Part shown: positions 1,411-61,929 of the stretch, one piece after another | Numbering within the stretch: position 1 is the first letter of the stretch | Layout: the number at the start of each line of letters is the position of its first letter | Assembly (NCBI GenBank): GCA_964019415.1 | Contig: OZ025886.1 | Coordinates: 6,033,503 to 6,097,502 of the forward strand | Length of the DNA: 64,000 nucleotides | Direction: 5' to 3' | DNA from: Ianthella basta | Lineage: Eukaryota; Porifera; Demospongiae; Verongiida; Ianthellidae | Translations under genes and position numbers: made by a program | Notes under the pieces: generated by a model | Seen by the model: only the letters and a program-made list of their open reading frames with translations | Database searches by the model: none | What the model was told of the DNA's origin: nothing

Positions 1411-1459
1411 ATGAGTGAGAATTCAAAGAGAGTGTTTCTGCTATCGCTACTGACTACAG
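1411..1459 (+). CDS. Gene 1 exon 1: signal peptide
   Basis: ATG opens MSENSKRVFLLSLLTTG, with basic residues then a leucine-rich core, as in a secretory signal. The donor is GTGGGC and the exon ends in phase 1, matching the phase-1 start of exon A. First exons of similar length and phase occur at 18386, 21622 and 50454, which supports this start. Confidence 0.7.
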
Positions 1460-4400
1460 GTGGGCTAACAGAGAAGATTTGACTACCGAATGTATGATAT
1501 TGTAAAAGAAATGCCATCCCTCGGTAGCTATAGATAGCTAGACACGTTATTACCGCTACTGTAATGTATAGCTAGCTATACTGTAGGCGCAGTGACTGCT
1601 AGTGGTGTAGCTACCGGGAGAGCTAGCTAACAAGTTGTACCAAGATCATCCATTTAATGATAATTCCCCGTAATAAGGCTCACACTTTTCCCTACCTCAT
1701 TTCGTTAGTCATCTTTTACTGTTCGGTTCGCTCGCGTTCACTCGACGCTTGCTCAACGCCATCGTGTTCAGAGTGTGCTACCAAGAACTTTTAAAGCACT
1801 GTAGAGTGAAGGAGTAGTGCACATTTAGGTTACTTTCGTCAGTGTAACTTCAAGATAGCAAGCTGTGTGGGCAGTGTCAGTAGCACACGACAATACTGGC
1901 ACGAGTTCCCAGCGCAGGGTCTATTAAGTATGCCTATAGTCGCTAGCTAGCTATGTACATGCTGAGTTAGAAAGGAGTCCGGCTATAAATTATAGCTAAC
2001 TACGTACAAGAACAGAAGAGTAATTTATCAACATTGCTACCCGTTAAAGCTTAGGCTTTCCCAAATTACTAATGGCAGCTAATTCCATACTAGCTAGCTA
2101 TAAGGAATGTTGAGCAAGAACTGAATGTAATATGATCTGTCACAGCGATCCACTGTAATGAATAGGGTGAGGGCTTTTCAGCTGGCTGAAGCATGACCAT
2201 GCAGGGTAGTTCTCCTATAGCTAACACCAACAAACAACGCGGTTGGATTCTTACCAATTAACCTGTTGAGAAGGAGAACATATAGGAGAACAAATGCTAG
2301 CCAGTCCTCCATATAGATGACTATCCAAAAATTATGCTGTGTGCTTCTTGATCAACACGCATTACAGTTTCCCCGGCCTGCAGCATGTATAGATACATGG
2401 CACATATGAAGAGTTACAATACCACTCATTCTGTAGCTAGCTGCTAGGATATCCCCAACATTAGCGTGTGGCATTGGCGAGGGAACCATCCTGGAAGCCT
2501 AACATGTACAGCTGCAAGCATGCAGAGGAGTTTGCTGAGGCAATGTGAGGCTTAATTCCCTCTGTTAAACATCAACATCATGTAGCTACGTTATCCTTAC
2601 ACCTTTCTCATACCTATCATCTTTCTATTGGTTGACATTTCCTCTATTATGACATCATTTATTTTGCACCTGTATGGATATTTTGGGAGAGCTGTGTTTA
2701 CTTTCTCCATGCTTTTACAAAAGAGGAAAGGCAAAGTTTGTCTCTATTGGAGTCTAATATTCTCTGCATGCAATGGGGATAGTAATATACCAGGTTATTT
2801 CAACCCCCTGGATATTTTAAACTATCCAGAGGGATACTTTATGCAGGTGATATTGTTTACTATGACACCAGTATGTACTGCTCACTGCTAGCTACCTGTT
2901 TTTGGGTTCAGTAATATAGCACATGTATGCCTATTGGGGACCTAATGCATACTACTTGTATGCATGAGCCCCAGCACAAGGCTTTACACTGCAAGACATT
3001 CCCTTTTTGTGTATCTCTGATTGGCTATGGAGATGTCTACATACAAAATGTAGTGAGCAGTTTAGTGTTCCTCCTACACTGTATCACCACACCCTGGAGT
3101 GCTTGTGTTTATCATCACTAGCTATACATACATACATGACTGTCAGTTGTTGGAATGCATATAGTGCAGCTTGTGCTACATGGTTTGGTGTACAACAGGT
3201 GCAAATCTATAACTATCCGGTAGCTAGTGAAATGCTCTCAGTTGCTTGTAGACCCATTAACTTCCATACTGATATAGAGTATCTGCAATAGCTTCTTGGA
3301 TGTTTGCATCTTCAGGCACTATAATTTCCTCAAGGCCATAATGGCATGGATCCTTATCATATCACCAAAATGCTAACAACTAGCCACAAGTTAGTTAGCT
3401 GTCAATCTGTAACTTCTTTTGTGTTGCCCACAAGTAGAAAGTGTCACATGTAGAGTGACTGTCACAGCGTTTTACTGTTCCATTATATACTTATACATAC
3501 GTACAGCGTTAACAAGCTGAGCATCCTTTCACTAGTTTCATACACTGTTAGTAGTACACATCCTATTGGCGCCCTCCATCTATATACGTACTAGTCATAT
3601 ACGTATGAAGCATGCATCACAATTGATGAGAGTAGCTAGCTCTGAAGTGAGTGATAATAAGTTCCGTCACAGCACCTTTGCTTTTTCTGGTAACCATACC
3701 TTCATTAATGGATAGTACATATGTGTGTATTCCACAGGTGTACCTTACAAATGTACGTATACCTATAGCTAAGCTGTAATATCTGATACATGCAGACATG
3801 TCCTGTTAGTAGATCCTACTGCTGACTGCTACATACGTAATTGTGTATAGTACATGTAAGGGCTAAGTTATAGATGTCACACTGCTCAGTTCCGAGAAGA
3901 CCTACAGTGATTACCAAGTGGACATGTATACTGCTTGGTGCCTGTCAATTAATGATATCCACTAATAGCTTTGCTTCCATTCTCTTCCATCACATGTATA
4001 TAGGTGTTCTGACACTGTCTCTATCAGCAGTGGCTCAAGGTTAGACCAAGGGAGAACTATTGATTGAAGTTGTAATGTACAGCAGTGCATGTAATCAACT
4101 AGTACAGGTGGGCAAAGATTAATCACTGGAAATTTTACATCAACTAGCCTTCTACACCAATGGTGTCTCAGGAGGCAATACGCCACACGGATGAGCCCCA
4201 AATAGGGCGAAACAGCTGTCTGTGCATGTGGCTCTACCATCTTTGTAGGATAACTAGTGGGGGAAGGCTGTGATCACTGGTTGCCATCAATAGGGCGTGA
4301 TGCCCCCCAGCCTCCTGAGACACCATTGGTGTTACAGTAGAAGGCTGGTTGGTGTAAAATTCCCAGCGATTTAATCTTTGTCAACTAATCTTCAGCAGTA

Positions 4401-7400
4401 GATCAACTGCTACAAACTATCCTCTAGTACAAGTGGGGTCAGGGCAGTCTGACCAACATGAGCAAGATGCAGCAACTGTATAATGTGGCTTATGCAAAGT
4501 ACAAGAGCGTAAGGTGTAGCCTTGAACATACGTACTGCACTTGGTAGTCCTGATCCTCTGCAACTTGTGCTGGTGGTGACATTTTCTCATGAACTAGTGC
4601 AAATACCTCAATTGTACCCTTAGTGGTCCTCACCTTCTGCAGTAAGAACTGTATCAATGTTTTGTGTTTACACATCGATCTACTAATCCTAACTCTATGT
4701 GACCACACACACTGTTTCCTTGTTCATAATACATATCATAACAGGTGAACTCTGATGTCTAATGTGGTGCATATGTATTTGTCTTTACATTCATTTGACT
4801 TCCATATTGTGTATATGATTCACTGTTCAATGGGGTACCTGTCAGCCAAGGTGTGATGTAGGTGCAGTCACTCTGTATATATACTCCTGTTTGATCTTAA
4901 TCATGTCGTTTAATGTCCACTATCTTCAATAGTAGATTATTTTATTTCTTGTCCTCATTGGCAGGCCTCGCTGTGACACCTAATTTGGTTCCACCTTTGG
5001 AAGTGCTGTCATCCAACCCTGTTATAGCTACCTACCCAACTCGCTACAACCTTAACACTGGAGCTGCTTTCAACATCAGTTGTTTTGCCAGTCACTCAAC
5101 TTATGCCTTCGCCTTATACTTCTACAAGGATGGGGTGGTGATCAGTGATGGGGACCTGGTGGACACAACACTGACTGTAACAAGTATCAGTTCTGTCCAG
5201 CAGAACATCCAATTGCAGTTCCTCAACTTCCAACCAGTCCATGATGGTGTCTACCACTGCTTTGCCAACACAAGTGATACAGTGGAAGAGGTGTCCAGTG
5301 ACTTGTACCTCTATGGATCAGGTGAGGACTGCCGCTGGTGCTACAGTATACATTGATCCTAAACAGGTTTCACTGTATTGTATATGTGACGAGTCCTTGT
5401 AATTCCAATGAAGCTGCCCTGATGTATAGTACTTGATAATGACTCCATTTATTGCTGAGCTGAAAGTGAGGCAAGTAATCTTGATGCTCTAGTCTTCATG
5501 GGTTTGTACGTACGTACGTATGTTATATATAATATCCGTAGCATTCAATTTGGGACACCTCATTTGTGCAAGAGCCTCACAAGTGCCCCATGAACTGGGA
5601 GCTGTTCCATTGTCAGTAGTCGCCACACATCTGCACAAAATAGTGATTTCTCACTATACACTGCATCTCGCTCTTCATTGCAGTCCTCCACCACAGTTTT
5701 GTAATGTAGACGGCTGACTCATTCCCAACATTTTGCATGATGTCAATCACGCAGTGTGGCCCAGGCCTTGTACACTGTTCCTTCGAGGGGTGCACCTGCC
5801 CTTCATGGTTTAATGAAAGGCTTCGTCTGGTTTGCTGCCTCCTTCTGTCTGTCAGCCAGGCAATTTAGTCAAGCCAGAGTGCAGATATGTTGACCAAATT
5901 GCACTTTGCTTGCTCCATGCTTTTCATCCTATATTACTTTTGTCGGGGCTGCTTGTTACTACTTTCTTCATTCAGTTTGCATGTTATTGCATTATTACAA
6001 TTTGTGTACAGTATCTTTGGTGGTATGTACATTCTGTTATGCTTACTCATTGCAATACATTTACGTACCTTCACAATGATAGAGTACTCCATGCACAGTG
6101 TGATGTGCATTGCATATTCCTAGTATTGTGTAACTACTCTCTAAGCCGTAATGTACTTATTATTTGATATGCACTTGTGCATGTAATTCTCACAGAACAG
6201 CTGTGTGAGGGTTGAGTGCCACTGATTACATTCCTAACAAAACTGAAAACATCCTGCATGAGTACTATGTTTGCTGAGCGGTACTATGTGTTTACTCACC
6301 AAGCACCCGTGCAGATCAGGGGAAAGGTGTTACATGGGTCGCCTCAAGCGATCTGTGATTTATAACCCTATTAAAATACAGCAACCTGTGGCATCATAAC
6401 AGTAGCTGCATCTTGAAGATGTGACAGGTCATTAAAATGAAAGTGGGTGGAGTTAAATAATGCATAAATGGTATAAATGAATGTGAAAATCATGCATGGG
6501 GGGGGAGGAGTTGAGAATGGATTCCACATTGTGGGGAGCTGTAGGCCACTGTCCAAGTTCATTTTTTCTATGCACAATCTGATGTGGAGAGCCCAGTTCT
6601 ACTCTGCCAGTATCCACTCAAACTCCCTGAATGGAATGCCCTAGCTGTGTATTTGATCACAGCAGCTGATCCCAAGACGTTAACATATGGCTGTTAACTG
6701 CAACACAGAGACAAGCATAGCAGGCAACTGGCCATGTCCACCTGAAGCTTGACAACATAGCTATGGTACATGCAATCTCTGCCTTTACTTTTCCCTCCTA
6801 ATGACTTGTCCAAAGACTATCTAGTCTGTTACAGATCAGATCCTGTATGCATCTTGCTTCTCCAAGTCTCTGTGTACGACTAAGAATGACACTCGCTTCA
6901 GTAAATGTCTTGAAAGTACATAACGAGCCACTTTATATTGCAGGTGTAAGTGTGGAGGCAAAGTTGCATGTACGTACGTAACTACCATTAAAAACAAAGG
7001 AATTTGATATACTTGGTAGTGACATTGACCTATGTATTCTGACTCTGTACAATGTGTTGCATTACCTCACCAGCCACAGCTTCTTTCCTGGGTAGCATTA
7101 GCCTTGTACCAGGTCTTCATAGCTAGGTCCTTTCAGAACAGGTACCTTCTTACCCTGCATGGTTACACATTGCATGAATTCAGTATTGGAATGTTGGATG
7201 TGTACATTTGTCATTCTGCTAATGTTTACACTTGAGAACCCTCAGTTGAGTCATTGTACTTTCTTTTATATTGTAAATTGCCATCAGACAAGCAGTCAAC
7301 CAGAGTATTGATCACCAGTTGCCATCTTATTTCCTGCATAGTCTTTGTGAATAGTTTGTATTTCATCAATTCCCAGCCCAGATAGTCAGATACATACTGT

Positions 7401-10335
7401 ACATACTTATACTGCATAGTGATTCTTTCTCCTCACTGTGCAGAGTACCCCCCTCCCCCTCCTGTCCGAGTGACCCCCCGGTATGTAGTACTGGACACTA
7501 GTGCTGATCTGGTACTGGAGGCAAGGTTCAGAGGGAGCTACTTCGCTAATGACTGGGTGTACAACGAAGATGACCCAACCTTCTTAACTAGTCGTAATAG
7601 TCTGTTTTCATCTGCTAATCGTACCAATGTGGAACAGACCTACACCATCTCTGCTGGGTCAGATGCTCATAGAGTGGGGTACTATGGACCATACATTTTA
7701 CTAACGTCTATTTCTACTTTAGAACCCACTCCAGAGAACACGGTGATTGTTAGCTCCTTTGGTAAGTACGTACACTGCAAACTGACTCCTCACAGCTCAC
7801 AATATGACTCCTCAAACAGACATACTACTCTAACAGTTTGGTCTCAAACCAGGATACTAGTTGTAATTCAATACAATACCATACATTCAATAAGTTGGAC
7901 ACCTGTGCTGGTTCCAGTGGCGTCCTTGTGTAATGTGTAGCAGTATTGCTTTCCATACCCAACATCAGATCATCTGTTGTTGTTCTATTATTTTGTGTAT
8001 TTGCTGCAGTTGCTGCCAATGCCTTCATCAATGGAATGGTGGATGCTATTCAGCTGACAGTTGCTGCTGGTGACATTTCTTTTGTTTGCTTTGCCCGGGG
8101 CTTCCCTGAGACAACCTTCAACATCCAACTGTCGGGAGTGACTGCCTCGTACACCATTGGGAACCAGATCCTGATGACAGAGGCCACGCCCACAACAGCT
8201 TTGGTGGTGAACCGCACTGTCACTCTCCACAATGTGACTGCATTGGACTGTGGAGCAGTGGTGACATGTGTGGCTAGCAACATGAACAGTGATGGGTCCA
8301 CACACACAGACCAAGCAGCAGCTACTCTGCAAGTACAAGGTGAGATGGATGTTCAAATGAATAGTTAGTCCCACGTGGCCAGACCCTTCCACTATTTCTG
8401 TTATTGTGCAATGTTTGTGGAGACTATAGCAGAAGTAGAAGAAGGGACTCGCCACATGGGACTAGTGAATGGTGTCCGTGTGTGTGTGCTTAGTGTACAT
8501 ACGTACATACCTTTGTGTCCTACTCTCCTATTCTCTCTTCTCTCCCTCCTCACTATCCCTCCCTCACACTTCTCCATATAGCACCTCCCTCTGTGAGTGT
8601 GACCCCTTCAGAGTCAATCCTCAGTGTGGGGGACCCTCTGACACTGACCTGCACAGGAGGAGACTGTGTTGGAACCACCAACTTCACCTTCTCCTGGCTC
8701 CTTGATGGCAGCCCAGTGGTCACCAGTCTGGTGACAGCAGTTGACGGCACCACTTCACTGCTTAGTGTCACCAGTGTGACCAGTGCTGACTTTGGAACAT
8801 ACACATGTCAAGTGACTAGTGTCCATGGAACAGGGACAGCAGTGTCCTATGTCCGGGAAAAGGGTATGTTATCCTGGTCATTTCACTTGCTGGGGGTTTG
8901 TATTGTATGTACATAAGCTGGTCACCCATCTACACCAACTTTAAAACAAGCAGTGACAGCACCACACGGTGGGCCAGGGGAGCATCATACACTGAGTGTG
9001 CATGTCTGTGTATATATGCAGGCAATGTGATTGTGGGCCTCACAGAGAGCTGGCACTCACTGAGGGAATAACAAAATGGGTAGCTTGTACTCCAGTGTAG
9101 AGCTAGTGCCTTCAACATCTTCTGTACACCTCACCATAGCTTTGACTGATTCTATTCACTCAAATGATCTTCTGAACCAATGGGAAACAATTGACTTACC
9201 CTATTCCCTATGTAGTGAATGTTTCCAAGTTACAAATGTAATAGTATATGAGCTAGTTTGTACAATACACATATGATACGAGTGTTGAGGTCCAGTGATT
9301 GTCCCTTATCATCAATACACAAAGTACGCAGTAGGACACCATGAAGTGCTTGAGCTGTTTTGTTAGCTTGTGCACTTTAGTGTTACCCATTTGTTGTGGT
9401 ATGCCCACACAGTGATGATGTGTGATACTGTTACTTGTGGCACAAGGTGTTCATGGCACACACACAGTGTCTCTCCTACTGTAAAGGGTAGCTGGGCAAA
9501 CTTGTATTTTGTATTGTTCGTATGTGAAGTTTATGTACTCACCAGTCTGTGCTGACCATGATGATGTAATGGTGATGTATATTGGCTGTCATCATCAGAT
9601 GGGGCTAGCCTTTGTTCTTTGATGTGCTACAGTGTTGGCTTATATTACAACACTATCACATTCCCCTCCCAACATAGGTTGCTTATTGTACTTATTAGTC
9701 TGCAGATAGTGTACTGGCATACCTAGCATAAGGACATGTTGTTCACAAGCTGACGTCCACCTCCACCCTTTCCCTGGTTCCCCCCCTACCTCAACAGGCT
9801 CCCTGGAATTCACCACTGACCTCACTGCTCCGCCCAATACCTCCCTCCACTCCTCACTGAGTGTGCTGGATGGAGAGACCAACAGATACAACATTGAACC
9901 CAGTGCAACCTTCTCCATCACTTGCACAGCAGAGAGCCCAGATGACTTCACTCTCGTGGCATTCCCAGTTGGAGTAGGGAACATGGCAGATGTTGATGTA
10001 TCTCTGGATGAAACCAACACTTCACTACCAACTACCTTCGTGAAGACGCTCGCATTTTCCTTTTCTGCATTCTCTTCGTCATCTAATGGCATGTACTGGT
10101 GTCAGGCAAACTCTTCAGCCACTCCTAATGTGCTGGAGAGTAGACGCATCCTCCTCGGAACTGGTCAGTGCTTGCTAATTCCTCCATTTCCTCACTCCAC
10201 CATCTTCACTGACAATGCTCATCCCTCACAGGTCCTGCTACAGTGACACGAGTGTCAGACCTTTACATTGAGCTGATTCCTTCCAACTCTCTGGAGCTGC
10301 AAGTGATGGTCACTGGAGCCTATGAGAGACAGTAG
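1411..10335 (+). CDS. Gene 1: truncated Ig-superfamily protein (7 exons, predicted soluble)
   Basis: Exons are 1411-1459, 4965-5321, 7444-7761, 8010-8339, 8582-8863, 9798-10163 and 10232-10335, with GT-AG introns in phase 1. They join in one frame of 602 codons including the stop. The order is signal peptide, Ig1 (A), a Cys-less Ig-like domain (B), Ig (C, D, E), then a broken Cys-less Ig-like domain (F). All but F match the 5' part of gene 3. Exon F runs straight into minisatellite array 2, which supplies a stop four codons after the last homologous 'GAYE'. No transmembrane segment is left, so a secreted product or a pseudogene is expected. Splicing past F into the C and D exons of unit 2 would keep frame and is an alternative. 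Confidence 0.75.
1460..4964 (+). other. Intron 1 of gene 1 (3.5 kb)
   Basis: No coding domain is visible. Bases ~2410-3300 match parts of the first introns of gene 3 (~22330-22920) and gene 4 (~51070-51860). Bases ~3600-4460 match ~13905-14220 of unit 2 and ~53595-54110 of gene 4. In all intact units the first intron is much longer (3.5-4.1 kb) than most others, so regulatory content is possible but not demonstrated. Confidence 0.6.
4965..5321 (+). CDS. Gene 1 exon A: Ig domain 1
   Basis: 119 codons, phase 1-1, donor GTGAGG. The domain has the two Ig cysteines in 'FNISCF' and 'GVYHCF' and is closely related to exon A of gene 3 (25650-26009) and gene 4 (54624-54986). Differences cluster just after the first Cys and in the segment before 'QLQFLNF', while the rest is near identical. 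Confidence 0.9.
5322..7443 (+). other. Intron A-B of gene 1
   Basis: 2.1 kb with no recognised gene. Bases ~5540-5700 and ~5900-6200 recur in the same intron of units 2, 3 and 4 (for example 14530-14700, 26230-26400 and 57040-57180), showing it was duplicated with the exons. Confidence 0.7.
7444..7761 (+). CDS. Gene 1 exon B: Cys-less Ig-like domain
   Basis: 106 codons, phase 1-1, donor GTAAGT. It starts EYPPPPPVRVTPRYVVLD. It has a Trp where the Ig C-strand Trp would lie ('NDWVYN') and 'VGYYGPY' where 'GxYxC' would lie, but no cysteine. The family is inferred from size, position and pattern. The middle of the domain differs strongly from the unit 4 copy, while both ends are conserved. Confidence 0.75.
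8010..8339 (+). CDS. Gene 1 exon C: Ig domain
   Basis: 110 codons, phase 1-1, donor GTGAGA. The cysteines lie in 'SFVCFARG' and 'VVTCVAS'. The 3' two-thirds is almost identical in all four units; the N-terminal strand is variable. It lacks the usual C-strand Trp. Confidence 0.9.
8582..8863 (+). CDS. Gene 1 exon D: Ig domain
   Basis: 94 codons, phase 1-1, donor GTATGT. The Ig pattern is 'LTCTGGDC', 'FSWLLDG' and 'GTYTCQV'. There is an extra Cys shortly after the first conserved one. Nearly identical copies lie at 17034-17315 and 29630-29911. Confidence 0.92.
8864..9797 (+). other. Intron D-E of gene 1
   Basis: 934 bp, nearly identical along its length to the same intron of gene 3 (29912-30864), so the duplication is recent or the copies are being homogenised. 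No gene is seen in it. Confidence 0.8.
9798..10163 (+). CDS. Gene 1 exon E: Ig domain
   Basis: 122 codons, phase 1-1, donor GTCAGT. The cysteines lie in 'FSITCTAES' and 'GMYWCQA'. Against gene 3 the first ~60 residues and the last ~25 are nearly the same, but the ~40 residues between them are largely different. This is a local divergent patch. Confidence 0.9.
10232..10335 (+). CDS. Gene 1 exon F, truncated by minisatellite
   Basis: This matches the first ~33 codons of gene 3 exon F (31303-31563) up to '...VTGAYER', then the sequence becomes the 33-bp repeat and reads CAG TAG. The rest of the Ig-like domain and its donor site are gone. It is either the real 3' end of a shortened gene or a broken exon. 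Confidence 0.75.
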
Positions 10336-13300
10336 TCATCATTTAGTGGTGTCCTAGGGGGACAGTAGTCATCATTTAGTGGTGTCCTAGGGGGACAGTA
10401 GTCATCATTTAGTGGTGTCCTAGGAGAACAGTAGTCATCATTTAGTGGTGTCCTAGGGGGACAGTAGTCATCATTTAGTGGTGTCCTAGGGGGACAGTAG
10501 TCATCATTTAGTGGTGTCCTAGGGGGACAGTAGTCATCATTTAGTGGTGTCCTAGGGGGACAGTAGTCATCATTTAGTGGTGTCCTAGGGGGACAGTAGT
10601 CATCATTTAGTGGTGTCCTAGGGGGACAGTAGTCATCATTTAGTGGTGTCCTAGGGGGACAGTAGTCATCATTTAGTGGTGTCCTAAGAGGACAGTAGTC
10701 ATCATTTAGTGGTGTCCTAGGGGGACAGTAGTCATCATTTAGTGGTGTCCTAGGGGGACAGTAGTCATCATTTAGTGGTGTCCTAGGGGGACAGTAGTCA
10801 TCATTTAGTGGTGTCCTAGGAGAACAGTAGTCATCATTTAGTGGTGTCCTAGGGGGACAGTAGTCATCATTTAGTGGTGTCCTAGGGGGACAGTAGTCAT
10901 CATTTAGTGGTGTCCTAGGGGGACAGTAGTCATCATTTAGTGGTGTCCTAGGGGGACAGTAGTCATCATTTCGTGGTGTCCTAGGGGGACAGTAGTCATC
11001 ATTTAGTGGTGTCCTAGGGGGACAGTAGTCATCATTTAGTGGTGTCCTAAGAGGACAGTAGTCATCATTTAGTGGTGTCCTAGGGGGACAGTAGTCATCA
11101 TTTAGTGATGTCCTAGGAGAACAGTAGTCATCATTTAGTGGTGTCCTAGGGGGACAGTAGTCATCATTTAGTGGTGTCCTAGGGGGACAGTAGTCATCAT
11201 TTAGTGGTGTCCTAGGGGGACAGTAGTCATCATTTAGTGGTGTCCTAGGGGGACAGTAGTCATCATTTAGTGGTGTCCTAGGGGGACAGTAGTCATCATT
11301 TAGTGGTGTCCTAGGGGGACAGTAGTCATCATTTAGTGGTGTCCTAGGGGGACAGTAGCCATCATTTAGTGGTGTCCTAAGAGGACAGTAGTCATCATTT
11401 AGTGGTGTCCTAGGGGGACAGTAGTCATCATTTAGTGGTGTCCTAGGGGGACAGTAGTCATCATTTAGTGGTGTCCTAGGGGGACAGTAGTCATCATTTA
11501 GTGGTGTCCTAGGGGGACAGTAGTCATCATTTAGTGGTGTCCTAGGGGGACAGTAGTCATCATTTAGTGGTGTCCTAGGGGGACAGTAGTCATCATTTAG
11601 TGGTGTCCTAGGGGGACAGTAGTCATCATTTAGTGGTGTCCTAGGGGGACAGTAGTCATCATTTAGTGGTGTCCTAAGAGGACAGTAGTCATCATTTAGT
11701 GGTGTCCTAGGGGGACAGTAGTCATCATTTAGTGGTGTCCTAGGAGAACAGTAGTCATCATTTAGTGGTGTCCTAGGGGGACAGTAGTCATCATTTAGTG
11801 GTGTCCTAGGGGGACAGTAGTCATCATTTAGTGGTGTCCTAGGGGGACAGTAGTCATCATTTAGTGGTGTCCTAGGAGAACAGTAGTCATCATTTAGTGG
11901 TGTCCTAGGAGGACAGTAGTCATCATTTAGTGGTGTCCTAGGAGGACAGTAGTCATCATTTAGTGGTGTCCTAGGGGGACAGTAGTCATCATTTAGTGGT
12001 GTCCTAGGGGGACAGTAGTCATCATTTAGTGGTGTCCTAGGGGGACAGTAGTCATCATTTAGTGGTGTCCTAGGGGGACAGTAGTCATCATTTAGTGGTG
12101 TCCTAGGGGGACAGTAGTCATCATTTAGTGGTGTCCTATGAGGACAGTAGTCATCATTTAGTGGTGTCCTAGGGGGACAGTAGTCATCATTTAGTGGTGT
12201 CCTAGGGGGACAGTAGTCATCATTTAGTGGTGTCCTAGGAGAACAGTAGTCATCATTTAGTGGTGTCCTAGGGGGACAGTAGTCATCATTTAGTGGTGTC
12301 CTAGGGGGACAGTAGTCATCATTTAGTGGTGTCCTAGGGGGACAGTAGTCATCATTTAGTGGTGTCCTAGGGGGACAGTAGTCATCATTTAGTGGTGTCC
12401 TAGGGGGACAGTAGTCATCATTTAGTGGTGTCCTAGGGGGACAGTAGTCATCATTTAGTGGTGTCCTAGGGGGACAGTAGTCATCATTTAGTGGTGTCCT
12501 AAGAGGACAGTAGTCATCATTTAGTGGTGTCCTAGGGGGATAGTAGTCATCATTTAGTGGTGTCCTAGGAGAACAGTAGTCATCATTTAGTGGTGTCCTA
12601 GGGGGACAGTAGTCATCATTTAGTGGTGTCCTAGGGGGACAGTAGTCATCATTTAGTGGTGTCCTAGGGGGACAGTAGTCATCATTTAGTGGTGTCCTAG
12701 GGGGACAGTAGTCATCATTTAGTGGTGTCCTAGGGGGACAGTAGTCATCATTTAGTGGTGTCCTAGGGGGACAGTAGTCATCATTTAGTGGTGTCCTAGG
12801 GGGACAGTAGTCATCATTTAGTGGTGTCCTAGGGGGACAGTAGTCATCATTTAGTGGTGTCCTAGGAGGACGGTAGTCATCATTTAGTGGTGTCCTAGGG
12901 GGACAGTAGTCATCATTTAGTGGTGTCCTAGGGGGACAGTAGTCATCATTTAGTGGTGTCCTAGGGGGACAGTAGTCATCATTTAGTGGTGTCCTAGGAG
13001 AACAGTAGTCATCATTTAGTGGTGTCCTAGGGGGACAGTAGTCATCATTTAGTGGTGTCCTAGGGGGACAGTAGTCATCATTTAGTGGTGTCCTAGGGGG
13101 ACAGTAGTCATCATTTAGTGGTGTCCTAGGGGGACAGTAGTCATCATTTAGTGGTGTCCTAGGGGGACAGTAGTCATCATTTAGTGGTGTCCTAGGGGGA
13201 CAGTAGTCATCATTTAGTGGTGTCCTAGGGGGACAGTAGTCATCATTTAGTGGTGTCCTAAGAGGACAGTAGTCATCATTTAGTGGTGTCCTAGGGGGAC

Positions 13301-13620
13301 AGTAGTCATCATTTAGTGGTGTCCTAAGGGGATAGTAGTCATCATTTAGTGGTGTCCTAGGGGGACAGTAGTCATCATTTAGTGGTGTCCAAGGGGGACA
13401 GTAGTCATCATTTAGTGGTATCCTAGGGGGACAGTAGTCATCATTTAGTGGTGTCCTAGGGGGACAGTAGTCATCATTTAGTGGTGTCCTAGGGGGACAG
13501 TAGTCATCATTTAGTGGTGTCCTAGGGGGACAGTAGTCATCATTTAGTGGTGTCCTAGGGGGACAGTAGTCACCATTTAGTGGTGTCCTAGGGGGATGGT
13601 AGTCACCATTTAGTAGTGTC
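10331..13620. repeat. 33-bp minisatellite, array 2 (~99 copies) with higher-order pattern
   Basis: About 3.3 kb of the same 33-bp monomer as array 1, in the 'GGTGTCC' form. Variant monomers are not random. 'CTAAGAGG'-type units start near 10684, 11047, 11377, 11674, 12136 (as CTATGAGG), 12499, 12862 (as CTAGGAGGACGG) and 13258. 'CTAGGAGAAC' units start near 10420, 10816, 11113, 11740, 11872, 12235, 12565 and 12994. Spacings are exact multiples of 33 and often 10-12 monomers (~363 bp), which implies amplification of blocks of about 11 monomers. The array ends with the same decayed monomer as array 1. Confidence 0.97.
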
Positions 13621-13903
13621 CCATATATAAGGAGGACTGTGGGGATAACAATGAACTAAATTGCAATCATTGGAGTTCAGAACTTGCACATTATGTATAA
13701 CCATTAATTGTGTGCGCAACTTTACTTTGGAGAGTACAGTAACAAAGTCGCTATACTCTCCATAGCTACATAGCTAGCTAACAGTGGTGCCCCAGACTAT
13801 TCATTCCAGCACTACTAACGCTGACGACCTGAGATAGAGTCCTTTAGCTTCTTAACATCTGTTCATAACATCTGTAACACCTGTTTGTTTACTGATGATC
13901 GTG
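13617..13903 (+). repeat. Copy of the gene 1 upstream segment
   Basis: About 287 bp nearly identical to 1066-1350, the segment between array 1 and gene 1 exon 1. At 13904 it jumps to sequence matching ~3645 of unit 1, so exon 1 and ~2.3 kb of intron 1 are missing from unit 2. Confidence 0.9.
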
Positions 13904-17315: not shown

Positions 17316-17335
17316 GTATGTTATCCTGGTCATTG

Positions 17336-19540: not shown

Positions 19541-19544
19541 ATAA

Positions 19545-21118: not shown

Positions 21119-21169
21119 CAATAATTATTATCATTATTATAATTATGCCACATGCTCTCAGGTAAACAA

Positions 21170-33964: not shown

Positions 33965-34046
<82 letters not shown>

Positions 34047-49748: not shown

Positions 49749-50453
49749 TTATAACTGATAAAATTACAGTGAATGTGTGCAAGACATAGTTTAACTGTAA
49801 GTGTTTTCTCCTCAGGTTTTAGCAGTTCATGTATTTTTGATATTGATAATAATATCACTCATTTCTTCGCTTTTCTTCTGCAGAAGGTTAGGGTCCGCCA
49901 ATTGACAATGCATGAGGCCTATTGAGTTCACAGTATTACCTTGCAGCCCTTTTATAATGGCTATATGTGTCTCCAAGTGTCTGTATGCAGTTACAACTTG
50001 AAGTAGATGCAGTAAGTGAACTAGCTATTACTGCTCAGACACAACACAAGCACATGCACAGATTCTCTCAATCAGTAAGAAGCATTACAGCACATTTAAT
50101 GGGCCACACTTTGCAAGGGATGGAGAACACTCTGTGCCTCCCGCGATAGCTAATCATCCACATGCAGACAGCTTGTGTACAAGGATATATCCCACCTATA
50201 GCTACAGACACTGCACAGTACAGTTCATATTATATGTTCTCAGTGACTGAAATCAACTGGTCGCTAGCGCAGTCCCATACAGTTACCAACACATGCATAC
50301 ATGTACCGCCGTTTCCAGACCAGTTTGCCCAGATAAAATTGGTCCGGAGACCATCTTTTTCGTTGCAAGAATTGGCCCTAGGACCACTTTCAAGGCCAAT
50401 TTTCCAGTGACAGCCAACGCCCACCTCAAGTATCACACCTTGTGCAGTCCGCG
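49749..50453 (+). promoter_or_regulatory. 3' end of gene 3 and promoter of gene 4
   Basis: Only 705 bp separate the stop of gene 3 from the ATG of gene 4. No AATAAA was found. From ~49990 the sequence matches the promoter block before gene 3 (21170-21621), so the 3' UTR must be short or overlap the next promoter. Confidence 0.6.
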
Positions 50454-53400: not shown

Positions 53401-56400
53401 GATAGACATACATGAGCATAGGATTGTATTGCAAAAGGGTTGCAAATATATGTACATACACAAGCATAGAATTTCGTTGCACAAGTTGTGGAAATACATT
53501 ACTTGCCGAGCCAAAAGCTGCGGATATACATACATACCCGCGAGGGACGACAACACATCACGATTACTTGCCTCGCCTGTCGACTCAGCAATTATACATA
53601 TGAAGCACGCATCAGCTAGCTATGAAGTGAGTTGTAATAAGTTCTGTCACAGCACCTTTGCTTTTTCTAGTAACCATACCTGGTTGCTAGAAGAGATAAA
53701 CATGTGTCAATAGCTAATATGTGCATTGCACAGGTACAAATGTACATACCTATAGCTAAGCTGTAATAGCCAGTACATGCAGACCTGTCCTGTAAGGGAG
53801 CTATGATCCTACTGCTGACTGCTACTGTACTTATGATTGTGTATAGTGCATGTAAGGGCTAAGTTATAGATGCCACACTGGTCAGTTCCAAGAAGACCTA
53901 CAGTGATTATACCAATTGGACATACTACTAGGTGCCTGTCAATTTATGATATTTACTTTGCTTCTATTTTCTCCAACACATGTATATAGGTGTCCTGATA
54001 CTGTCTCTATCAGCAGTGGCTCAAGGTTAGACCAAGGGAGGACTTTAATGTACAGCATGTAATCAAATACTACAAGTGGGGTCAGGGCAGTCTGACCAAC
54101 ATGAGCAAGATGCAGCAACTAATGTGGCTTATGCATGCAAGAGTACAAGAGTGTAAGGTGTACCCTTGCACATGCTGCATCTGGTAGTCCTGCATGATCC
54201 TCTGTAGCTTGTGCTAGCTGGTGGCGACTTTTCTTAAGAACTATTGCAAATATATACGTATACTCCACTTGTACTTTTGTGGTCCTCACCTTCTACATGC
54301 GCAGTTGGATCTGTATCATTGTTTTAACTTGCTTTTACACATCTATATACTAGTCCAAAATCTATGTGACCACACACACTGATTCCTTGTTCATAATACA
54401 CATCATAACAAGTCTCTCTCTGATGTCTAATTTGGTGCATATGTAGTCATCTATACTTCAACATGTGTATACGTTTGTTGTTCTATTGGTCAGGGTATCT
54501 GTCAACTAAAGTGTGCATAATCTAGGTGTATGCAGTCAATTCCTTCTGTTTGATCTTAATCATGATGTTTTCATAGTTCACTGTCTTCAATGATTGTTTT
54601 TCTTGTTGTCTTCATGATGGCAGGTCTCTCTGTAGTGCCTAATTTGATGCCAAGTGGAACTGGAGTGCTTTCACCCAACCCTGTTTCAGGTTACGGCAGA
54701 TCAACTCGCTTCAACCTCAACACTGGAGCTACTTTTAACATCAGTTGTATCATCACTCACTCAACTAATGCCTTTACCATATACTTCTACAAGGATGGGG
54801 TGGTGATCAGTGATGGGGAACTGGTGAACACTACACTGACTGTAACAGTCCATACGAGCACTCAGTGGACCGTTCAGTTGCAGTTCCTCAACTTCCAACC
54901 AGTCCATGATGGTGTCTACCACTGCTTTGCCAACACAAGTGATACAATGGAAGAGATGTCCAGTGACTTGTACCTCTATGGATCAGGTGAGGACTGCCGC
55001 TGGTACTACAGTATACATTGATCCTAAACAGGTTTCACTGTATTGTATGTGTGATGAGTCCTTGTAATTCCAATGAAGCTGACCTGATGTATAATACTTG
55101 ATGGTGACTCCATTTATTGCTGAGCAAAAAGTGAGGCAAGTTATCTTGATGCTCAAATCTCCATGGGTTTGTATGTATGTATGTATGTTGTATACTACAG
55201 TGTGACCTCTCCCCCCCCATAATCTGCCAAACCTGCTAATCTGCCCTAGTTCTCAATAAACAAATTAAATTGTACACATTTACTATACATGTAATCTGCC
55301 ACCCACCAATACCATCATCTGCCACAATTTTTGATGACGAAATTGACTATTTATTAATGTATTTCCCCCGGAAATCTGCCATGTGGTAAACCTATATACA
55401 GATCTAGTGGTGTTAGCATTTTCAAGATGGCTAGTCAAGGAAGAACAGAAATCAGTATTGCACGAAAACGAGAAATCTGCCAGTACAGAGAAGATAACCC
55501 AGGTGCCACAAGGATGTTGCAACTGTTTCCAGCGAAAATGGAAAATTAACATCGATCGCACAAAGAACTGTGGGAAATATTTCAAAGAGAAAATTGGACT
55601 GGGAGGCCACCGATACGCGTCAACTGAAGACAAAGCGGATGAAGAAACCCAAATTTGAGGAATTAGAACGGGCTTTGGGATTGCCGTTTACATCCATGGA
55701 AGTGAAGAAGGCTATTGTCACCAATGCCATCCTAGTTGCTAAAGCAAAGGAGTTCGCAAGTCGATTGGACCGCCCTGAAGATGATTTCAAGGGCTGCAAC
55801 AGATGGCTAAGCCGCTTCAAACAACAACGAGGAATCGCATCCAGAAAGTTGCATGAAGAGGCATCATCAGTCGAACTTCCTTTATACTGTATTATACACC
55901 ATTTGTACAATGACATGTTTTGTATTCTGGTTGTGAGTATATTATTTCAATAGTATTAGCACAGTGTTAATATTATCATGGTAATATTATCATAATGATG
56001 CATTCTGAGATGCTCTCTGCATGTACCTGCATGTGTTAGGGCTCAAACCTCATTGATCTGCCAATCCCGCTAATCCACCATAAATCTGAGCGGATTAGCG
56101 AAGTTAGTGTACAAAAATTCCTTTAGAATGAAAAGGATTTAGGAATGGCCAGCAGAAAATACATAGAAACAAGCAACAGCACCTCTATACCATGATAAAC
56201 CACATTTCCACGAAGTTCACTCTGCATTCCTAATTTACTTGTGGATGCATGGACCCAAATGTCTAGCTAGTTAGTCCCATGTAGCTGCAAGGACTACAAA
56301 GTGAATTTCACAGAAATGTGGATTATCATGGTGTTGAGGTGCTGTTGCTTGTTTCTATGCTTTTTCTGCTGGCCATTCCTAAATCCCTTTTAATTCTAAA

Positions 56401-59400
56401 GGAATTTTGTGCACTAGTTTGTACAATTTTTGCATATCCAAAGGACTATAGCTACATCAGATTAATACTTGAGCTGAGTAATACCCCTTCTTTAAAGTAG
56501 ATGAAGATTACGCAGAAGATCGAGAACAGTTATGCCACTTTAGATGAACCGGCTGCTGTGTTACGATAATGGTATACCAGCGCAACAAAATGCCAGCATT
56601 GGAGTATCTTAATACACGGGGAGGACAAGTTTCTTACCTACTCTAGCGCTGTACTTATCGGATTGCCACCAATGCTCAGATCCTAGTCCTCCACGTATGC
56701 ATGTAAGTCGTCTTAGAAAATGGGGTCAATAAGTGCCCTGTGTCATGCACTAGGAGCGCACAAAATTCTGTGGAAGGAGAAGAATAATATGAAAAGACAA
56801 AATGGGGTACGAGCAGCCTATGACACTTTTTCTCTTATGTGCACTCCAGGCTGATTTTAGCTGCGCTGACGTCTTCAGTACATCAAATGAAGCCTATCCA
56901 TGGCCTTCAATTGTTCTTTGCCACCGCCTTTTGACTACATAGTTCACTGAAGCACCCTAATGCATTAAGATAGAAGATGCCATTTTTATCAGCCACATTC
57001 CTAAATAGACGTTATGAGCATGACGTCTGATATCCACAACATTCTATATTTGAGACACCTCATTTGAGTCTCACAAGTGCCCATGAACTGGGAGCTGTTC
57101 CATTGTCAGTAGTCGCTACACATCTGCACAAAATAGTGATTTCTCACTATGCACTGCGTCTCGCTCTTCATTGCAGTCTTCCATTGGAGCTTCGTCACAC
57201 AGACTGCTGACTCATACTCATGCATCATTTTGCATGATGTCAATTGCATGGCATGGCCTGGACCCAGTACACTGTTCCTTTGAGAGGTGCAAGCTGCCCT
57301 TCATAGTTTAATGAAACATTGCAGGCTTAGTCTGGCTTGCTGCCTCCTTCTGTCTGTCAGCCAGGCAAATCAGTCAAAACAGAGTGCAGCTATGTTGACC
57401 AAAATGCACTTTGCTTGCTCAAGCTCTGTTTCTCTGTTCATGCTTTTCAACCTATACCGTATGGCCGGAAATTTGGCGGGAATTTATTTTGGCGGATTGC
57501 TGAAATTTCTGTATTTGGCGGAATTTACTTTGGCGGTTTGGGCAAAGCCTGTGCCATAATGATATTCATAGCAAAATGGCTAATCCGGGCGAACAGAGCT
57601 AGATTGCTGCAGAGTCTCTGAGGAGTATATACACGCGCTGTTGTTTCACCATAATCGGATCATTTTCGTTCCAATCCTTAGCTTTTCCCAGGAATGCTGC
57701 AACGTACAAAGGCTTTTAAGCCTCCTTTTGGCAGATCTGCTGACGCTCGCCCCAAGCCTGTGACCTCGCACACAATTGTACCGCTCCAATGCAGAAACAG
57801 AGAACAGGCTGCCGAAATCTGCCGCAGTAAGTTACCTACAATGATCTCAACGTCAGTCTTCACAGCGACCGCATATACGACGCCGTTCGGATTACCTACG
57901 GCTTCCTCGTGCTCTACTTCCACCTCCGATGTGAAACACTCTTTGGAAATGTGGTGTCCTCGCGCTGTTGTCAGTTGTTCGATTAATCTATAGGCCTGGC
58001 GCAACCAGGCTTGTTAAGCGGGAAAACTATATGATTGCACAAATTTTGGCGGAAGAAATATTGGCGGATTGCTCTCAAAACCGCCAATCCGCCAAAATAA
58101 ATTCCCCGCCAAAATTTCCGGCCATACGGTAGTACTATTGGTAAGGCTGCTTGTTACTGTTTTCTTCATTCAGTTTGCACATTATTACATTTAATTTATT
58201 TTCATATATGTGCAGTATCTTTGATGGTACATACATACATTCTGTTATACTCACTCATTGCAATACATTTACCTTCACAACAGTAGAGAACTGAGAAAGT
58301 GTGACTGTACACATGCTGCGTACATTCATTCATAGTTTTGTATATGTTGCGATTGTGCTGGCAGCTTTATGTGCTGTTGTGAACATTGGAAACGAGGAAT
58401 GTTCTTATACAAGGCTGAAAACCAGTGAAAGAGGCACCCATGTGGAAGTGTGGGTTGTACATATACTATGCAGAAGTCACATGCCATTTATTGGGAGGGA
58501 GCCATTGTAATGGATGTCAAGCAATGCTTCATCAGAGATACCTAAAAGAATCATGGTACAGTACTCAAAGTTAACGGTGAGAGAGAGAGTGGAACAAGTA
58601 AAGGAAATGAAGTACCTCAGGACAATGATCAGTAGTGATGGGAGTATGGACAGTAAAGTGGAGCAGAGAGTAGGAATGGCATCGAGGATGGTTGGGGCAA
58701 CCGGAAGTACAGTGCTAGGAAGGAAGGAATTGGGGAAAGGGGACAAAATTGAGGGTGGTGAATGCTACGGTGATTCCCACATTGACTTATGGGTGTGAAG
58801 CATGGGTGTTGCAAGCAAGACATAAGGGAAGAATACAGGCTGCGCAAATGAAAGTGTTAAGATGGATAGAGGGAGTGACGAGGCTAGATAGAATAAGGAA
58901 TGTGGATCTTAGGGGCAGATTGAGGCAGGAAGGAAACTTGGATCTGGTAAATAGACGACAGCAGAAGTGGAAAGCAAAGATTAGAGGAGATGAGCAGCGG
59001 TAGAGTGACGAAGATAGTGTATGATGATGAGATTCCAGGAAAGCGTTCTCGAGGAAGACCCAGAATGAAGTGGAGTAGTAATTTTGCTTAACTATGTAAT
59101 AACTATATAATAACTCTCTTCTTTCTCAATACCTCTTCCAAAGGCTGTCTGTGGCAGTTCAGAGAGGGAACTCAGCATCAGTGCTGGGGGCTACTGGCCA
59201 GCTGCTTGGTCAAGACTTCCTTTTTGACTGGCTCACTAGCTAACAGTGAGGCATGACTTTTACTTAAGTGTAGTGTTAGTCTGAAGTCTATATCTTAATT
59301 TTAAGAATACCCCAGTCTTAAGCATCTCTATCACCAAATTGTGAATTTTGACCGTACTCCTTTTGAGGAAGGTTTGCTGTATTTTATAATAACTGAGTTA

Positions 59401-61929
59401 TGACACTATTTTCTAGAAACTCCTGTTGTAAGTATTTAGGGTGACCGCCCACATGGGAGATAAAAAACTCATGTGTATTGATTGATTGATTGATTGGTAC
59501 AGTCAGGAACCAGGAATCAGGAAATCTTACTTAACCTGGGGAACCATTAGCCAATGGCTAATTTTAGTGGCACCCAGAAAACAAAACACAACAAACAGTG
59601 CAAAAAGGCAGTATGGAAATAATACAGTTAAAATGGAATATAACTAAGTGATTGATTGGTAGTTATTGTACAGTACATCAGGTCATATGCAAAGACCATG
59701 AACCAAGATGAGGGCAATTTTCCACGTACAAGTGTACAACCTCAGCATTTAGCATAACACTGCCTAAATTAGTCAGCTGGTGAACCTTCTTGTTGACACT
59801 AATGTGTTCCTTTTACAATTTTCTGTAATCTCTCCGCCTTTCAATTTAATGTTTACTTCATTGTTTGTATTTATAAGTCATATGCTTCTACACCGACACA
59901 AACCCATTCATTTGGTTTCATATCTACATTTTTCTTACCTGCCCCTCCTCCTACCTGAGTACATACAGTGTGTAATATACTTTAGTCTCCATACCCTGTG
60001 TCTTATATACGTACCACTGATAAAGACCCTTTGTAGACTGGGACAAACCATCTGATAATTATTGACAAGGGACATCTGTTTCCGATAGTGGCTAGTGAAA
60101 TTTCTGATCTGTAATCACGTCTACATACATCTAGCTAGTGTCTTGGATATTTCAAATTGATTCCCATCTCTCACAATGCAACTCTTACCCAAGTGCAGCT
60201 CCCAAGACAGTTTTGTGACAATGATAGCCACTCACAGTCGGTTATCACATCTGGGCCTTTAGCTAGGGTGGTTCATTTGGTTCGTCTGAACCCCCCTCCA
60301 CAATTTGTGGGGCATACAGTTCAGAACCTAAATCATTTTGAAGTAGTCCAAGTCCATATTGAGGGCCAGAAGCTTCATTTTTGGGGCACCAAAGGCATCC
60401 CATTATTGTTTTCAGTTTTAGGTGTTTGTTTGGTTTCATGTGCATAATGATGTATTTGTCCTTGCAAATGGCAGTACTCAAGTCGTTCTTTACAAAGTTA
60501 AAAATCATCTTTGCTGGTGTTTTGCCATCTGTCTATCTATCGAATGAAATAGGTTCATAGGCAGGTGTTATTAGAGTGAAGCTAGTATAAACCCTATCAA
60601 AGGACTCTCCTGCGAGGTACAGTTTCACAAAATTGAGCAACATTATAAAATGGCCATGCTGAGGTTCTTCTGTTTGCTAGACTTACTATATATCATCATT
60701 CTTCAGATTTCACTATATGTATCGAAAGAATTTTAAGTGTTTATAGACCTGGTTGAAGTAGCAGTATAGTAGTAAAAATATTACCTAATACTCAATGATA
60801 AATTGCAGTAGAAAGTTATAGGAGCTTGGCCTATGATTGCATTACAAATCCACTTAGCATTCACTCCCTGAATGGGAACACTTCTCTAGTAAGCACCCTT
60901 TCTGCAGTCCCACTGCATACTAAACTACATCTGAAATATTAGATTCTTCAAGGATATAGCACTTCACGCTGCCCTAACATGCCTGGCACAATAATTATAC
61001 CAATTCACTGTGCATACAGTTGTGCCCTACCTCCTCCCTGTGCAGAGTTCCCCCCTCCCCTTCCTGTCCGAGTGACCCCCCGGTATGTAGTACTGGACAC
61101 TAGTACTAATCTGGTATTGGAGGCAAGGCTCAGAGGGAGCTACTATTATCTTTACTGGTGGTACAGAGAATATGAAACTGGTTCCTTTCACAATCCGTCA
61201 TCTGCTATTTATACCAATTTTGGACAGACCGTCACCATCCCTGCTGGCTCATTCTTTCTTAGAGCGGGCTACTTTGGACCATTTCTTGGTCCATCACCTA
61301 TCACTCGTACTGTGCAGCCAACTCCAGAAAACACAGTGATTGTTGGGTCCTTTGGTAAGCACATGTACACTACTGACTTGCAGGATTAAAAGGCATAAGA
61401 TTCTGTAATATATGTGCTCTGTAGCACACCTCATATCCTGTTGTTACTGTATGTTGAAATTGTGGCATTAATATGCAAATGAGTATTGCAATGAAACATG
61501 TGCTGTTCCACCATGTCCATGGTGACAATGCAATTGTGCATGTATACCACGTATGTTGCTATCTGTAACCAGTCCATCCTTGTATTGCATGTCTATTCAC
61601 TGCAGTTTCTCCCGCTGCCTTCATCAATGGGCTCAGTACGGCTGCCGTGACGTCTGCTGCTGGTAACAGTGTCACCTTAACTTGTCTTGCCCGTGGCTTC
61701 CCTGAGACAACCCTCAACATCCAACTGTCAGGAGTGACTGCCTCGTACACCATTGGGAACCAGACCCTGATGACAGAGGCCACAGCCACAACACCTCTGG
61801 AGGTGACCCGCACTGTCACTCTCCACAATGTGACTGCATTGGACTGTGGAGCAGTGGTGACATGTATGGCTAGCAACATGAACAGTGATGGGTCCACACA
61901 CACAGACCAAGCTACTCTGCAAGTGCCAG
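50454..61929 (+). CDS. Gene 4: Ig receptor, 5' part (exons 1, A, B, C)
   Basis: Exons 50454-50496, 54624-54986, 61046-61354 and 61606-61929 join in one frame, phase 1, with all four open. It has the same layout as the start of gene 3, and here exon B is in frame. Its intron A-B is 6.1 kb instead of ~2.3 kb because of inserted elements. Exon D should lie about 250 bp after exon C, but a LINE begins there and fills the rest of the window. Whether the gene resumes beyond is unknown. Confidence 0.7.
50497..54623 (+). other. Intron 1 of gene 4 (4.1 kb)
   Basis: Bases ~51070-52060 and ~53595-54110 match the first intron of gene 1. A short ATATCA-type repeat lies at ~51186-51228. The stretch between ~52065 and 53595 is an insertion relative to gene 1, described separately. 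Confidence 0.6.
52065..53595. mobile_element. Unidentified ~1.5-kb insertion with a hairpin
   Basis: Flanks match 3400-3425 and 3600 onward of gene 1 intron 1, so this block is extra. It includes a near-perfect inverted repeat (arms 52290-52345 and 52396-52448, ending in GACATTATTGGAAATGC type sequence), a MITE-like foldback. Several short open frames lie on the minus strand (53307-52837) but none was recognised. Confidence 0.5.
54624..54986 (+). CDS. Gene 4 exon A: Ig1
   Basis: 121 codons, phase 1-1. 'FNISCIITHSTNAF' and 'GVYHCFANTSDT'. It varies from genes 1 and 3 at the same two spots. Confidence 0.9.
55198..56100 (+). mobile_element. pogo-type DNA transposon remnant (CENP-B-like DNA-binding part)
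   Basis: The frame 55570-55953 holds 'LPFTSMEVKKAIVTNAILVA', 'LDRPEDDFKGCNRWLSRFKQ' and 'RGIASRKLHEEAS', the pattern of the CENP-B/Tigger N-terminal helix-turn-helix. A stretch just upstream, in another frame, 'ASTEKITQVPQGCCNCF', may also belong. The left end begins CAGTGTGACC at 55198; AATCTGCC/CTAATCTGCC motifs flank the left and 'CGCTAATCC...GGATTAGCG'-like motifs the right (56060-56100). The catalytic domain is absent, so it cannot move by itself. Confidence 0.75.
56101..56420. mobile_element. Foldback (MITE-like) hairpin
   Basis: Two ~120-bp inverted arms, 56101-56220 and 56301-56420, with an 80-bp spacer. For example CAGCAGAAAATACATAGAAA in the left arm pairs with the reverse of TTTCTATGCTTTTTCTGCTG in the right. 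They match at most positions, so a long stem is expected. Confidence 0.85.
56421..57030. other. Inserted DNA of unknown origin
   Basis: About 610 bp absent from the same intron of units 1 and 3; homology to them resumes at ~57031. No domain was recognised. Confidence 0.5.
57457..58129. mobile_element. 673-bp TIR element carrying a HIRAN-like ORF
   Basis: The terminal inverted repeats are ~43 bp, starting CCGTATGGCCGGAAATTT, with internal 'TTGGCGG' motifs. TA flanks both sides (57455-57456 and 58130-58131), and the empty site is seen in sister introns (near 5933 and 14940). This fits a TA-targeting, probably non-autonomous DNA transposon. On the minus strand it carries an open frame (listed next). 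Confidence 0.88.
57678..58004 (-). CDS. HIRAN-like small ORF inside the TIR element
   Basis: 108 codons, starting MRQAYRLIEQL. 'VEHEEAVGNPNGVVYAVAVK', then 'VGNLLRQISAACSLFLHWSG' and 'VCEVTGLGRASADLPKGGL' resemble a HIRAN-like domain ('E..NP.D..AVAV...VVGH.P..IS..CSLFL..GG.I.C.VTG') common in invertebrate proteins, often in repeats. It is not a transposase. Its role, if any, is unknown; the family call is from memory of the pattern. Confidence 0.55.
   Translation of the reverse strand: MRQAYRLIEQLTTARGHHISKECFTSEVEVEHEEAVGNPNGVVYAVAVKTDVEIIVGNLLRQISAACSLFLHWSGTIVCEVTGLGRASADLPKGGLKAFVRCSIPGKS
58514..59500 (+). mobile_element. LINE 3' fragment (reverse-transcriptase C-terminus)
   Basis: 'MKYLRTMISSDGSMDSKVEQ', then 'VVNATVIPTLTYGCEAWVLQ' and 'QMKVLRWIEGVTRLDRIRNV' match the region after the RT catalytic core in common invertebrate LINEs. 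Two frames overlap at ~58750, so at least one frameshift is present, and a stop follows 'KIRGDEQR'. The 3' end is marked by 'CCCACATGGGAGATAAAAAA' and a (TGAT)n run at 59477-59500, typical of LINE tails. Confidence 0.85.
59501..60666. other. Inserted DNA of unknown origin
   Basis: About 1.17 kb with no match in the sister introns and no recognised domain. The frame at 60157-60447 has no known motif. Confidence 0.5.
61046..61354 (+). CDS. Gene 4 exon B: Cys-less Ig-like domain
   Basis: 103 codons, phase 1-1, donor GTAAGC. The ends 'VRVTPRYVVLDTST' and 'PTPENTVIVGSFG' match genes 1 and 3, but the middle ('YYYLYWWYREYETGSFH', 'LRAGYFGPFLGPSPIT') is very different. No Cys. Confidence 0.85.
61606..61929 (+). 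CDS. Gene 4 exon C: Ig3
   Basis: 108 codons, phase 1-1, donor GTGAGA. 'LTCLARG' and 'VVTCMAS'. The 3' part matches the other units, minus two Ala codons before 'TLQV'. Confidence 0.9.

Follow-up and report, generated by a model that had tools for sequence, protein, structure and literature searches.

Some animals use clustered immunoglobulin (Ig) genes to distinguish self from non-self, and to our knowledge few such recognition loci are known. The Alr proteins of Hydractinia, for example, have small ectodomains of few Ig domains. Here we describe a stretch of 64,000 nucleotides from the sponge Ianthella basta (contig OZ025886.1, positions 6,033,503 to 6,097,502 of the forward strand, hereafter the window), which holds four head-to-tail copies, termed A to D, of a large Ig receptor gene. 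As a functional analogue, the Hydractinia allorecognition complex with Alr1 and Alr2 comes nearest; there, as here, a tandem cluster of Ig superfamily (IgSF) genes with pseudogenes is found (PMC3276163, PMC11067881). Sequence donation between the Hydractinia loci has been suggested, and their V-set-like domains vary (PMC3276163, PMC11067881; review PMC11999971). Alr proteins are single-pass membrane receptors, and close to the end of copy C lies a single strongly hydrophobic segment, although the start of C and its link to that segment are in doubt. In contrast to Alr, one receptor here would have an ectodomain of about 26 Ig exons together with FN3 domains (26 Ig exons, the Ig-sized exon E3 and four FN3 domains in C), and its tail holds a single YxxL and no pattern of an immunoreceptor tyrosine-based inhibitory, switch or activation motif (ITIM, ITSM, ITAM). 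Because neither of two Alr features tested, cytoplasmic ITIM/ITAM-like motifs and a small ectodomain, is found, the cluster is not filed as Alr; an Alr-like allorecognition role is possible by analogy.

Other animal systems share particular elements with this locus. The Sp185/333 genes of sea urchins are not Ig genes, and Dscam, which includes FN3 domains, is a large Ig receptor that is among the best matches in the Protein Data Bank (PDB) to the Ig profile of this cluster. Dscam diversity is generated by alternative exon arrays, between which no gene conversion was found in Daphnia (PMC3236188), whereas whole-gene copies with conversion-like patches are found here. The Sp185/333 clusters are bordered by tandem repeats, are built of mosaic exon blocks and have been proposed to undergo gene conversion, all in likeness to the sponge cluster, but they consist of two-exon genes with almost no pseudogenes (PMC5103432), unlike the multi-exon Ig genes with decayed copies found here. 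The fuhc locus of Botryllus encodes neighbouring secreted and membrane-bound products, the latter with Ig domains (PMC3691228). These are, however, two distinct polymorphic histocompatibility genes, whereas copy A repeats, in truncated form, the 5' exons of the receptor itself. Among sponges, grafts of Amphimedon showed no enrichment of aggregation-factor genes (PMC5450542), and among the papers listed on sponge Ig genes and allorecognition, which included few subscription papers, none presents a cluster of this kind in its title or the opening of its abstract.

The four copies form collinear blocks on the forward strand with ~75-89% identity in a self-comparison of the window, and share a common 5' series of Ig exons (A 3994-10327, B ~13902-18110, C 25650-49748, D 53980-61929; the exons described below are all on this strand). 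Self-comparison blocks and exon models confirm the head-to-tail arrangement that a first-pass annotation had proposed from the sequence, with corrections to its labels. The first 480 bases of the window (forward strand) probably represent the 3' flank of another copy; of these, 424-480 match 49900-49956, directly after the stop of C, at 91%, and 1-97 and 279-373 match 19246-19438, 3' of B. As the start of the window resembles the 3' flanks of C and B, at least one additional copy, a fifth, probably lies upstream of A. The sequence supports a diverging, clustered Ig receptor family with a predicted membrane form, a predicted secreted form and broken copies. We read it as a tandem birth-and-death cluster of animal IgSF surface receptor genes that would diversify by sub-exon gene conversion, a reading on which our judgement is evenly balanced.

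The strongest new observation, and the point that deserves follow-up, is a sub-exon mosaic. Exon E6 of A (9798-10163) and its partner in C (30865-31230) stand in near-identical surroundings, with an identity between the two copies of 94.2% over the whole intron before E6, 95.6% in the intron that follows E6 and 96.9% in the remaining part of E7. E6 itself begins with four differences in its first 154 bases (~97% identical) and then enters a divergent block (~9952-10118), in which 55 of the 90 columns at 9952-10041 differ without gaps (39% identity; 0 of 2000 shuffles). The proportions of synonymous and non-synonymous differences (pS and pN) are 0.65 and 0.37 in codons 38-91, against 0.07 and 0.01 in the preceding 38 codons and 0.31 and 0.14 in the following 29. 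Such near-saturated synonymous sites beside near-identity mean that the block and the sequence around it do not share one history; the block may have been imported from a diverged sequence, or the surroundings may have been homogenised and the block spared. The model of E6 has an Ig fold (predicted local distance difference test, pLDDT, 76, lower within the block), and its best Foldseek matches are CSF1R, VEGFR2, shark VNAR and KIT at 10-18% identity. On this predicted fold the block begins at strand C and stops shortly ahead of the second cysteine; beyond the block, changes are scattered.

Identical runs are found across the cluster. The two Ig trios of C (42075-43407 and its duplicate, 47274-48640) differ by 13.5% overall and share 279 identical bases (47984-48262 = 42751-43029; 0/2000 shuffles). 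Further runs measure 139 bp between A and C (0/2000), 98 bp between A and B (7/2000), 109 bp between B and C (3/2000), 94 bp between C and D (0/2000), 100 bp in a duplicated Ig pair within C (1/2000) and 64 bp in E2 of A and C (34/2000). These tests rest on 2000 shuffles of alignment columns and presuppose a uniform rate over the aligned sequence, although exons and introns may differ in rate; the contrast within a single exon is the safer argument. Long identical runs beside sharply divergent blocks in one exon would not readily arise from point mutation alone, and the patches point to sub-exon gene conversion.

Several observations weigh against the reading of a receptor cluster that diversifies by conversion. 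Divergent patches also lie in introns: the last 120 bases before E6 (9676-9795) are only 75-80% identical between A and C, and an intron patch at 42402-42567, one exon upstream of the identical run of the trio, has 59% identity, the worst window of the trio being 42467-42556. Exchange is thus not limited to coding sequence. The worst window of E2 between C and D is unremarkable (96/2000 shuffles) and is the weakest case, E5 is not variable, and a donor of the E6 block is not found within the window. As pS exceeds pN in the E6 block, there is no direct sign of positive selection. Over the shared exons, the ratio of non-synonymous to synonymous divergence (dN/dS) is 0.58 for A-C (bootstrap 0.46-0.75), 0.62 for C-D (0.44-0.89) and 0.94 for A-D (0.69-1.29), and with B it is 0.83 (A-B), 0.90 (B-C) and 0.80 (B-D). 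These values suggest some constraint and give no proof of positive selection, and relaxed constraint would fit them as well. Two candidate accounts were rejected. Simple positive selection in E6 fails as divergence is greater still at synonymous than at non-synonymous sites, and a rule that exons diverge faster than introns is suggested by the A-C block (exons 85% identical, introns 94%) but contradicted by the conserved E5 and by the trio of C, which shows the opposite.

The same figures are compatible with a rival explanation, in which a large Ig/FN3 adhesion gene has undergone ordinary tandem duplication and decay, with near-neutral divergence, incidental conversion and no recognition role. 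The dN/dS range of 0.58-0.94 at a synonymous divergence of 0.24-0.25 (A-C, A-D and C-D), the decay of B, the truncation of A, the patches in introns and the solved structures that match the Ig profile best (titin, DSCAM, Roundabout, neurofascin and contactin in the PDB) are all consistent with it, and we regard it as a tentative but real possibility. However, the E6 block, with its pS of 0.65 amid near-identity, needs a long-separated lineage and not neutral drift of the A-C pair, and the joined codons of C (3,407) and A (600) are still open.

The exon models come from an exon finder that combines generic splice-site weights with a coding score, for which 24 clear exons of the window itself served as training set; the exon chain of C was assembled by Viterbi. 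At a score cut-off of at least 20, 40 forward exons are found, whereas the reverse strand and one block-shuffled sequence each yield 0. Since the 40 include the training exons, their number depends in part on that training; phase itself was untrained. The class 1-1 module arrangement of metazoans, one domain per exon between symmetrical phase-1 introns, is seen in 37 of these 40 strong exons, and 29 of the 39 exons in the Viterbi chain of C are phase 1-1. The first-pass annotation had stressed near-universal phase 1-1 exons, whose gain or loss keeps the frame, and this part stands (skipping exon 3 of C restores the frame). The frame-neutral exon shuffling that it read from this is not supported in that form. 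Shuffled modules of animals, Ig and FN3 included, are generally of phase 1-1 (PMC8001218), so that the phase pattern is ordinary and does not point to any special shuffling at this locus; the striking diversity lies in sub-exon patches and not in whole-exon swaps.

Copy C carries the large receptor body, comprising 26 Ig exons, four FN3 domains, a domain like that of receptor tyrosine phosphatases (RPTPs), a transmembrane segment and a tail. It runs from E2 to the first Ig trio (25650-43407, the Ig exons nearly all phase 1-1), through the FN3 domains recognised by Pfam fn3 (43610-45931, the fourth split over two exons), the phosphatase-like domain (46221-47094, four exons) and the second trio, to a juxtamembrane region with the transmembrane segment (48882-49348; segment 49260-49316, hydropathy 3.37 over 19 amino acids) and the cytoplasmic tail (49448-49748), which ends in a stop. 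Its Ig-sized exons number 27, the 26 Ig exons and E3; I-set matches 24/27 and Ig_3 24/27 at E<=0.01, and E3 is the only one of the 27 to match neither. E2 scores 30.4 bits with Pfam ig and 19.1 bits with V-set, under the cut-off of 26. Ig exons have also been duplicated within C (34576/36303/37727 and 35936/37350/38850). The phosphatase-like domain resembles the last Fn3 of RPTPs by sub-cut-off Pfam matches (Fn3_PTPRU 23.8 bits, cut-off 24.7; PTP_tm E 0.006) and by RPTP-mu in the PDB (E 0.11). RPTPs, of the RPTP-mu type and others, likewise combine Ig and FN3 domains in the ectodomain, but C has no phosphatase domain and its tail ends ~110 residues after the transmembrane segment. Three Ig exons, moreover, stand between its Fn3-like domain and the membrane.

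The first-pass annotation had described C as a full receptor of ~3,780 residues. The Viterbi chain comes near this length (3,737 amino acids without the signal exon, 39 exons), although two of its exons are doubtful (26118-26163 and 48738-48793); an extra exon of 66 amino acids (46755-46952) fits the chain but has a weak donor. Joined without exon 3 and the transmembrane and tail exons, 35 exons give 3,407 codons and no stop, and the frame stays open when exon 3 is skipped. Completeness is more doubtful, and three points speak against it. The conserved signal exon, in the 5' flank of C (22326-23184), has TTG where A and D have ATG. Exon 3 (28453-28771) offers no AG acceptor in phase 1, those present being in phase 0 or 2, and contains a run of seven C, at which the frame break is possibly a sequencing error. 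Finally, an in-frame join of the last Ig exon to the transmembrane exon depends either on the doubtful 56-base exon 48738-48793 or on the phase-1 acceptor at 48931, which is weak. C is thus not clearly intact. A signal-exon scan yields an alternative candidate at 24782-24851, one of 11 matches.

The tyrosine-rich tails of the first-pass annotation reduce to a single open tail in the window, that of C, which holds seven tyrosines in 106 residues, six of them in the final tail stretch together with one RPLPKPP. YxN, YxxM, NPxY and YxxL each occur once, and paired YxxL is, like ITIM, ITSM and ITAM, absent by pattern, a point against a plain Alr assignment and against the main reading. Such short patterns arise by chance and are weak evidence for signalling. 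The last exon of C encodes 99 amino acids and then a stop, and shows no Pfam match and no phosphatase domain. A fold for the juxtamembrane region was discarded, the model being too poor (pLDDT 42), and PDB sequence matches of this region (best beta-dystroglycan, E 0.063) fall on its proline-rich and transmembrane part. Exon E3 is conserved in three copies (7444-7761 in A, 28453-28771 in C, 61046-61354 in D) and lacks a canonical cysteine pair. Its assignment as an Ig domain was rejected: the C copy has no Pfam match, and there is no PDB match up to E 10 and no profile match to E2 or E6.

Copy A is predicted to encode a secreted product. Its signal exon (3994-4039, MYIGVLTLSLSAVAQ, with a phase-1 donor) is conserved in D (53980-54025). 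E2 (4965-5321), E4 (8010-8339), E5 (8582-8863) and E6 are Ig exons, E3 is without family assignment, and E7 (10232-10327) is cut by a minisatellite. Joined, these seven exons give an open frame of 600 amino acids with a signal sequence and a stop in the first minisatellite repeat, in agreement with the soluble truncation that had been described. The start of the cluster, by contrast, had been set at a candidate signal exon at 1411-1459, which a signal-exon scan also picks up, but this exon is seen only in A, with no homologous block in C or D, and is therefore rejected as the first exon of the family in favour of the conserved one at 3994. The 33-bp minisatellite is present at 10328-13621 (99.8 copies) and again at 503-1047 (16.5 copies), and its unit has no match in viral_contigs. 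On the minus strand the two arrays are open for 1,111 and 181 residues, respectively; the 33-bp unit is a multiple of three, which keeps the frame open, and these frames are likely not a gene. Each array is adjoined by a 280-bp block (1072-1351 and 13622-13901). The two blocks are 98.2% identical, compared with 80-88% elsewhere between A and B, which may reflect either recent conversion or a repeat that moved together with its flank.

That both array junctions lie at minisatellites, and that E3 of C breaks frame at a seven-C run, could also suggest an assembly artefact, in which some copies are haplotypes of a single locus placed one after the other, or errors in the consensus account for the minisatellite junctions and the frameshifts. 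We consider this improbable. Four partial copies and the flank of a fifth exceed two haplotypes, each copy carries different insertions and deletions, and the window contains no N bases.

The state of A and C bears on a further alternative, a cassette array in which the 5' Ig series of A, and once that of B, serve as alternative N-termini spliced to the 3' part of C, as in protocadherin or UGT1 loci. A possesses a signal exon but lacks a 3' end, in C the 3' end is present but the conserved signal exon is without an ATG, and A E2-E6 and most exons of C are phase 1-1, whose junctions would keep frame. The array nevertheless appears quite unlikely. A decayed tail of B lies between A and C, and the 3' flank of C is repeated after B (21166-21727), indicating that B was once a whole gene and that A owes its state to an apparent deletion. 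Moreover, a separate signal exon is present in D, and C has another candidate at 24782-24851. A one-locus version, in which the 5' Ig cassettes of A are spliced to the body of C and conversion exchanges blocks such as mid-E6, giving variable N-termini on a common signalling receptor, seems very unlikely to us.

The wreck of the first-pass annotation is B, a pseudogene (13902-18110, by self-alignment and exon models) in which a remnant of a mostly deleted E2, a frameshifted E3 and a frameshifted tail (17869-18110) are recognisable, and E4 (16462-16791) and E5 (17034-17315) are still open. The copy it called transposon-swollen is D, whose signal exon, E2 (Ig, 54624-54986), E3 and E4 (Ig, 61606-61929) join to an open frame of 347 amino acids. 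Intron 2 of D harbours a forward-strand open reading frame with a Tc5-type helix-turn-helix (55498-55950, HTH_Tnp_Tc5, Pfam E 9.2e-9). Farther into this intron, at 58511-59000, open frames resemble by eye the end of a retrotransposon polymerase and have no such Pfam match. After E4 of D lies a probable retrotransposon without long terminal repeats (non-LTR; 62106-64000), of which 62701-63105 match Exo_endo_phos weakly (E 0.022, under the cut-off) and the rest was judged by eye. Between B and C, a minus-strand open frame (20104-21117) likewise resembles by eye the C-terminal part of a non-LTR retrotransposon and has no Pfam match.

The analysis draws on this one sequence together with domain libraries and published work. 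Judged by its gene content, the window is animal DNA. Rfam finds nothing in it at gathering scores, and a bacterial model finds no tRNA. Relatives of the cluster are not confirmed in viral_contigs (33 pattern matches) or genome_contigs (26 pattern matches), which, as virus and prokaryote collections, say little by this absence. Two short words are over-represented in the window, TAGCTAGC with 12 occurrences against 0.9 expected and TAGCTA with 70 against 16.

If the cluster indeed encodes surface receptors that diversify by sub-exon conversion, recognition would fall to the N-terminal Ig domains, and the divergent block of E6 might form part of a ligand-contacting face that is kept diverse by selection. 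The membrane form would signal through the SH3- and SH2-type motifs of its tail, the secreted form might compete with it or serve as a ligand, and the family as a whole may function in the recognition of self and non-self or of microbes. Minisatellites and phase 1-1 introns would make the gain, loss and truncation of copies tolerable. Should the locus not prove polymorphic, it would be well resolved but unexceptional, a locus shaped by tandem duplication, conversion and decay. With its long-diverged patch amid near-identical surroundings, it is a clear example from nature of the exchange of blocks within one Ig exon, and if the cluster is polymorphic, it would be a candidate for allorecognition or immunity with an unusual, giant architecture.

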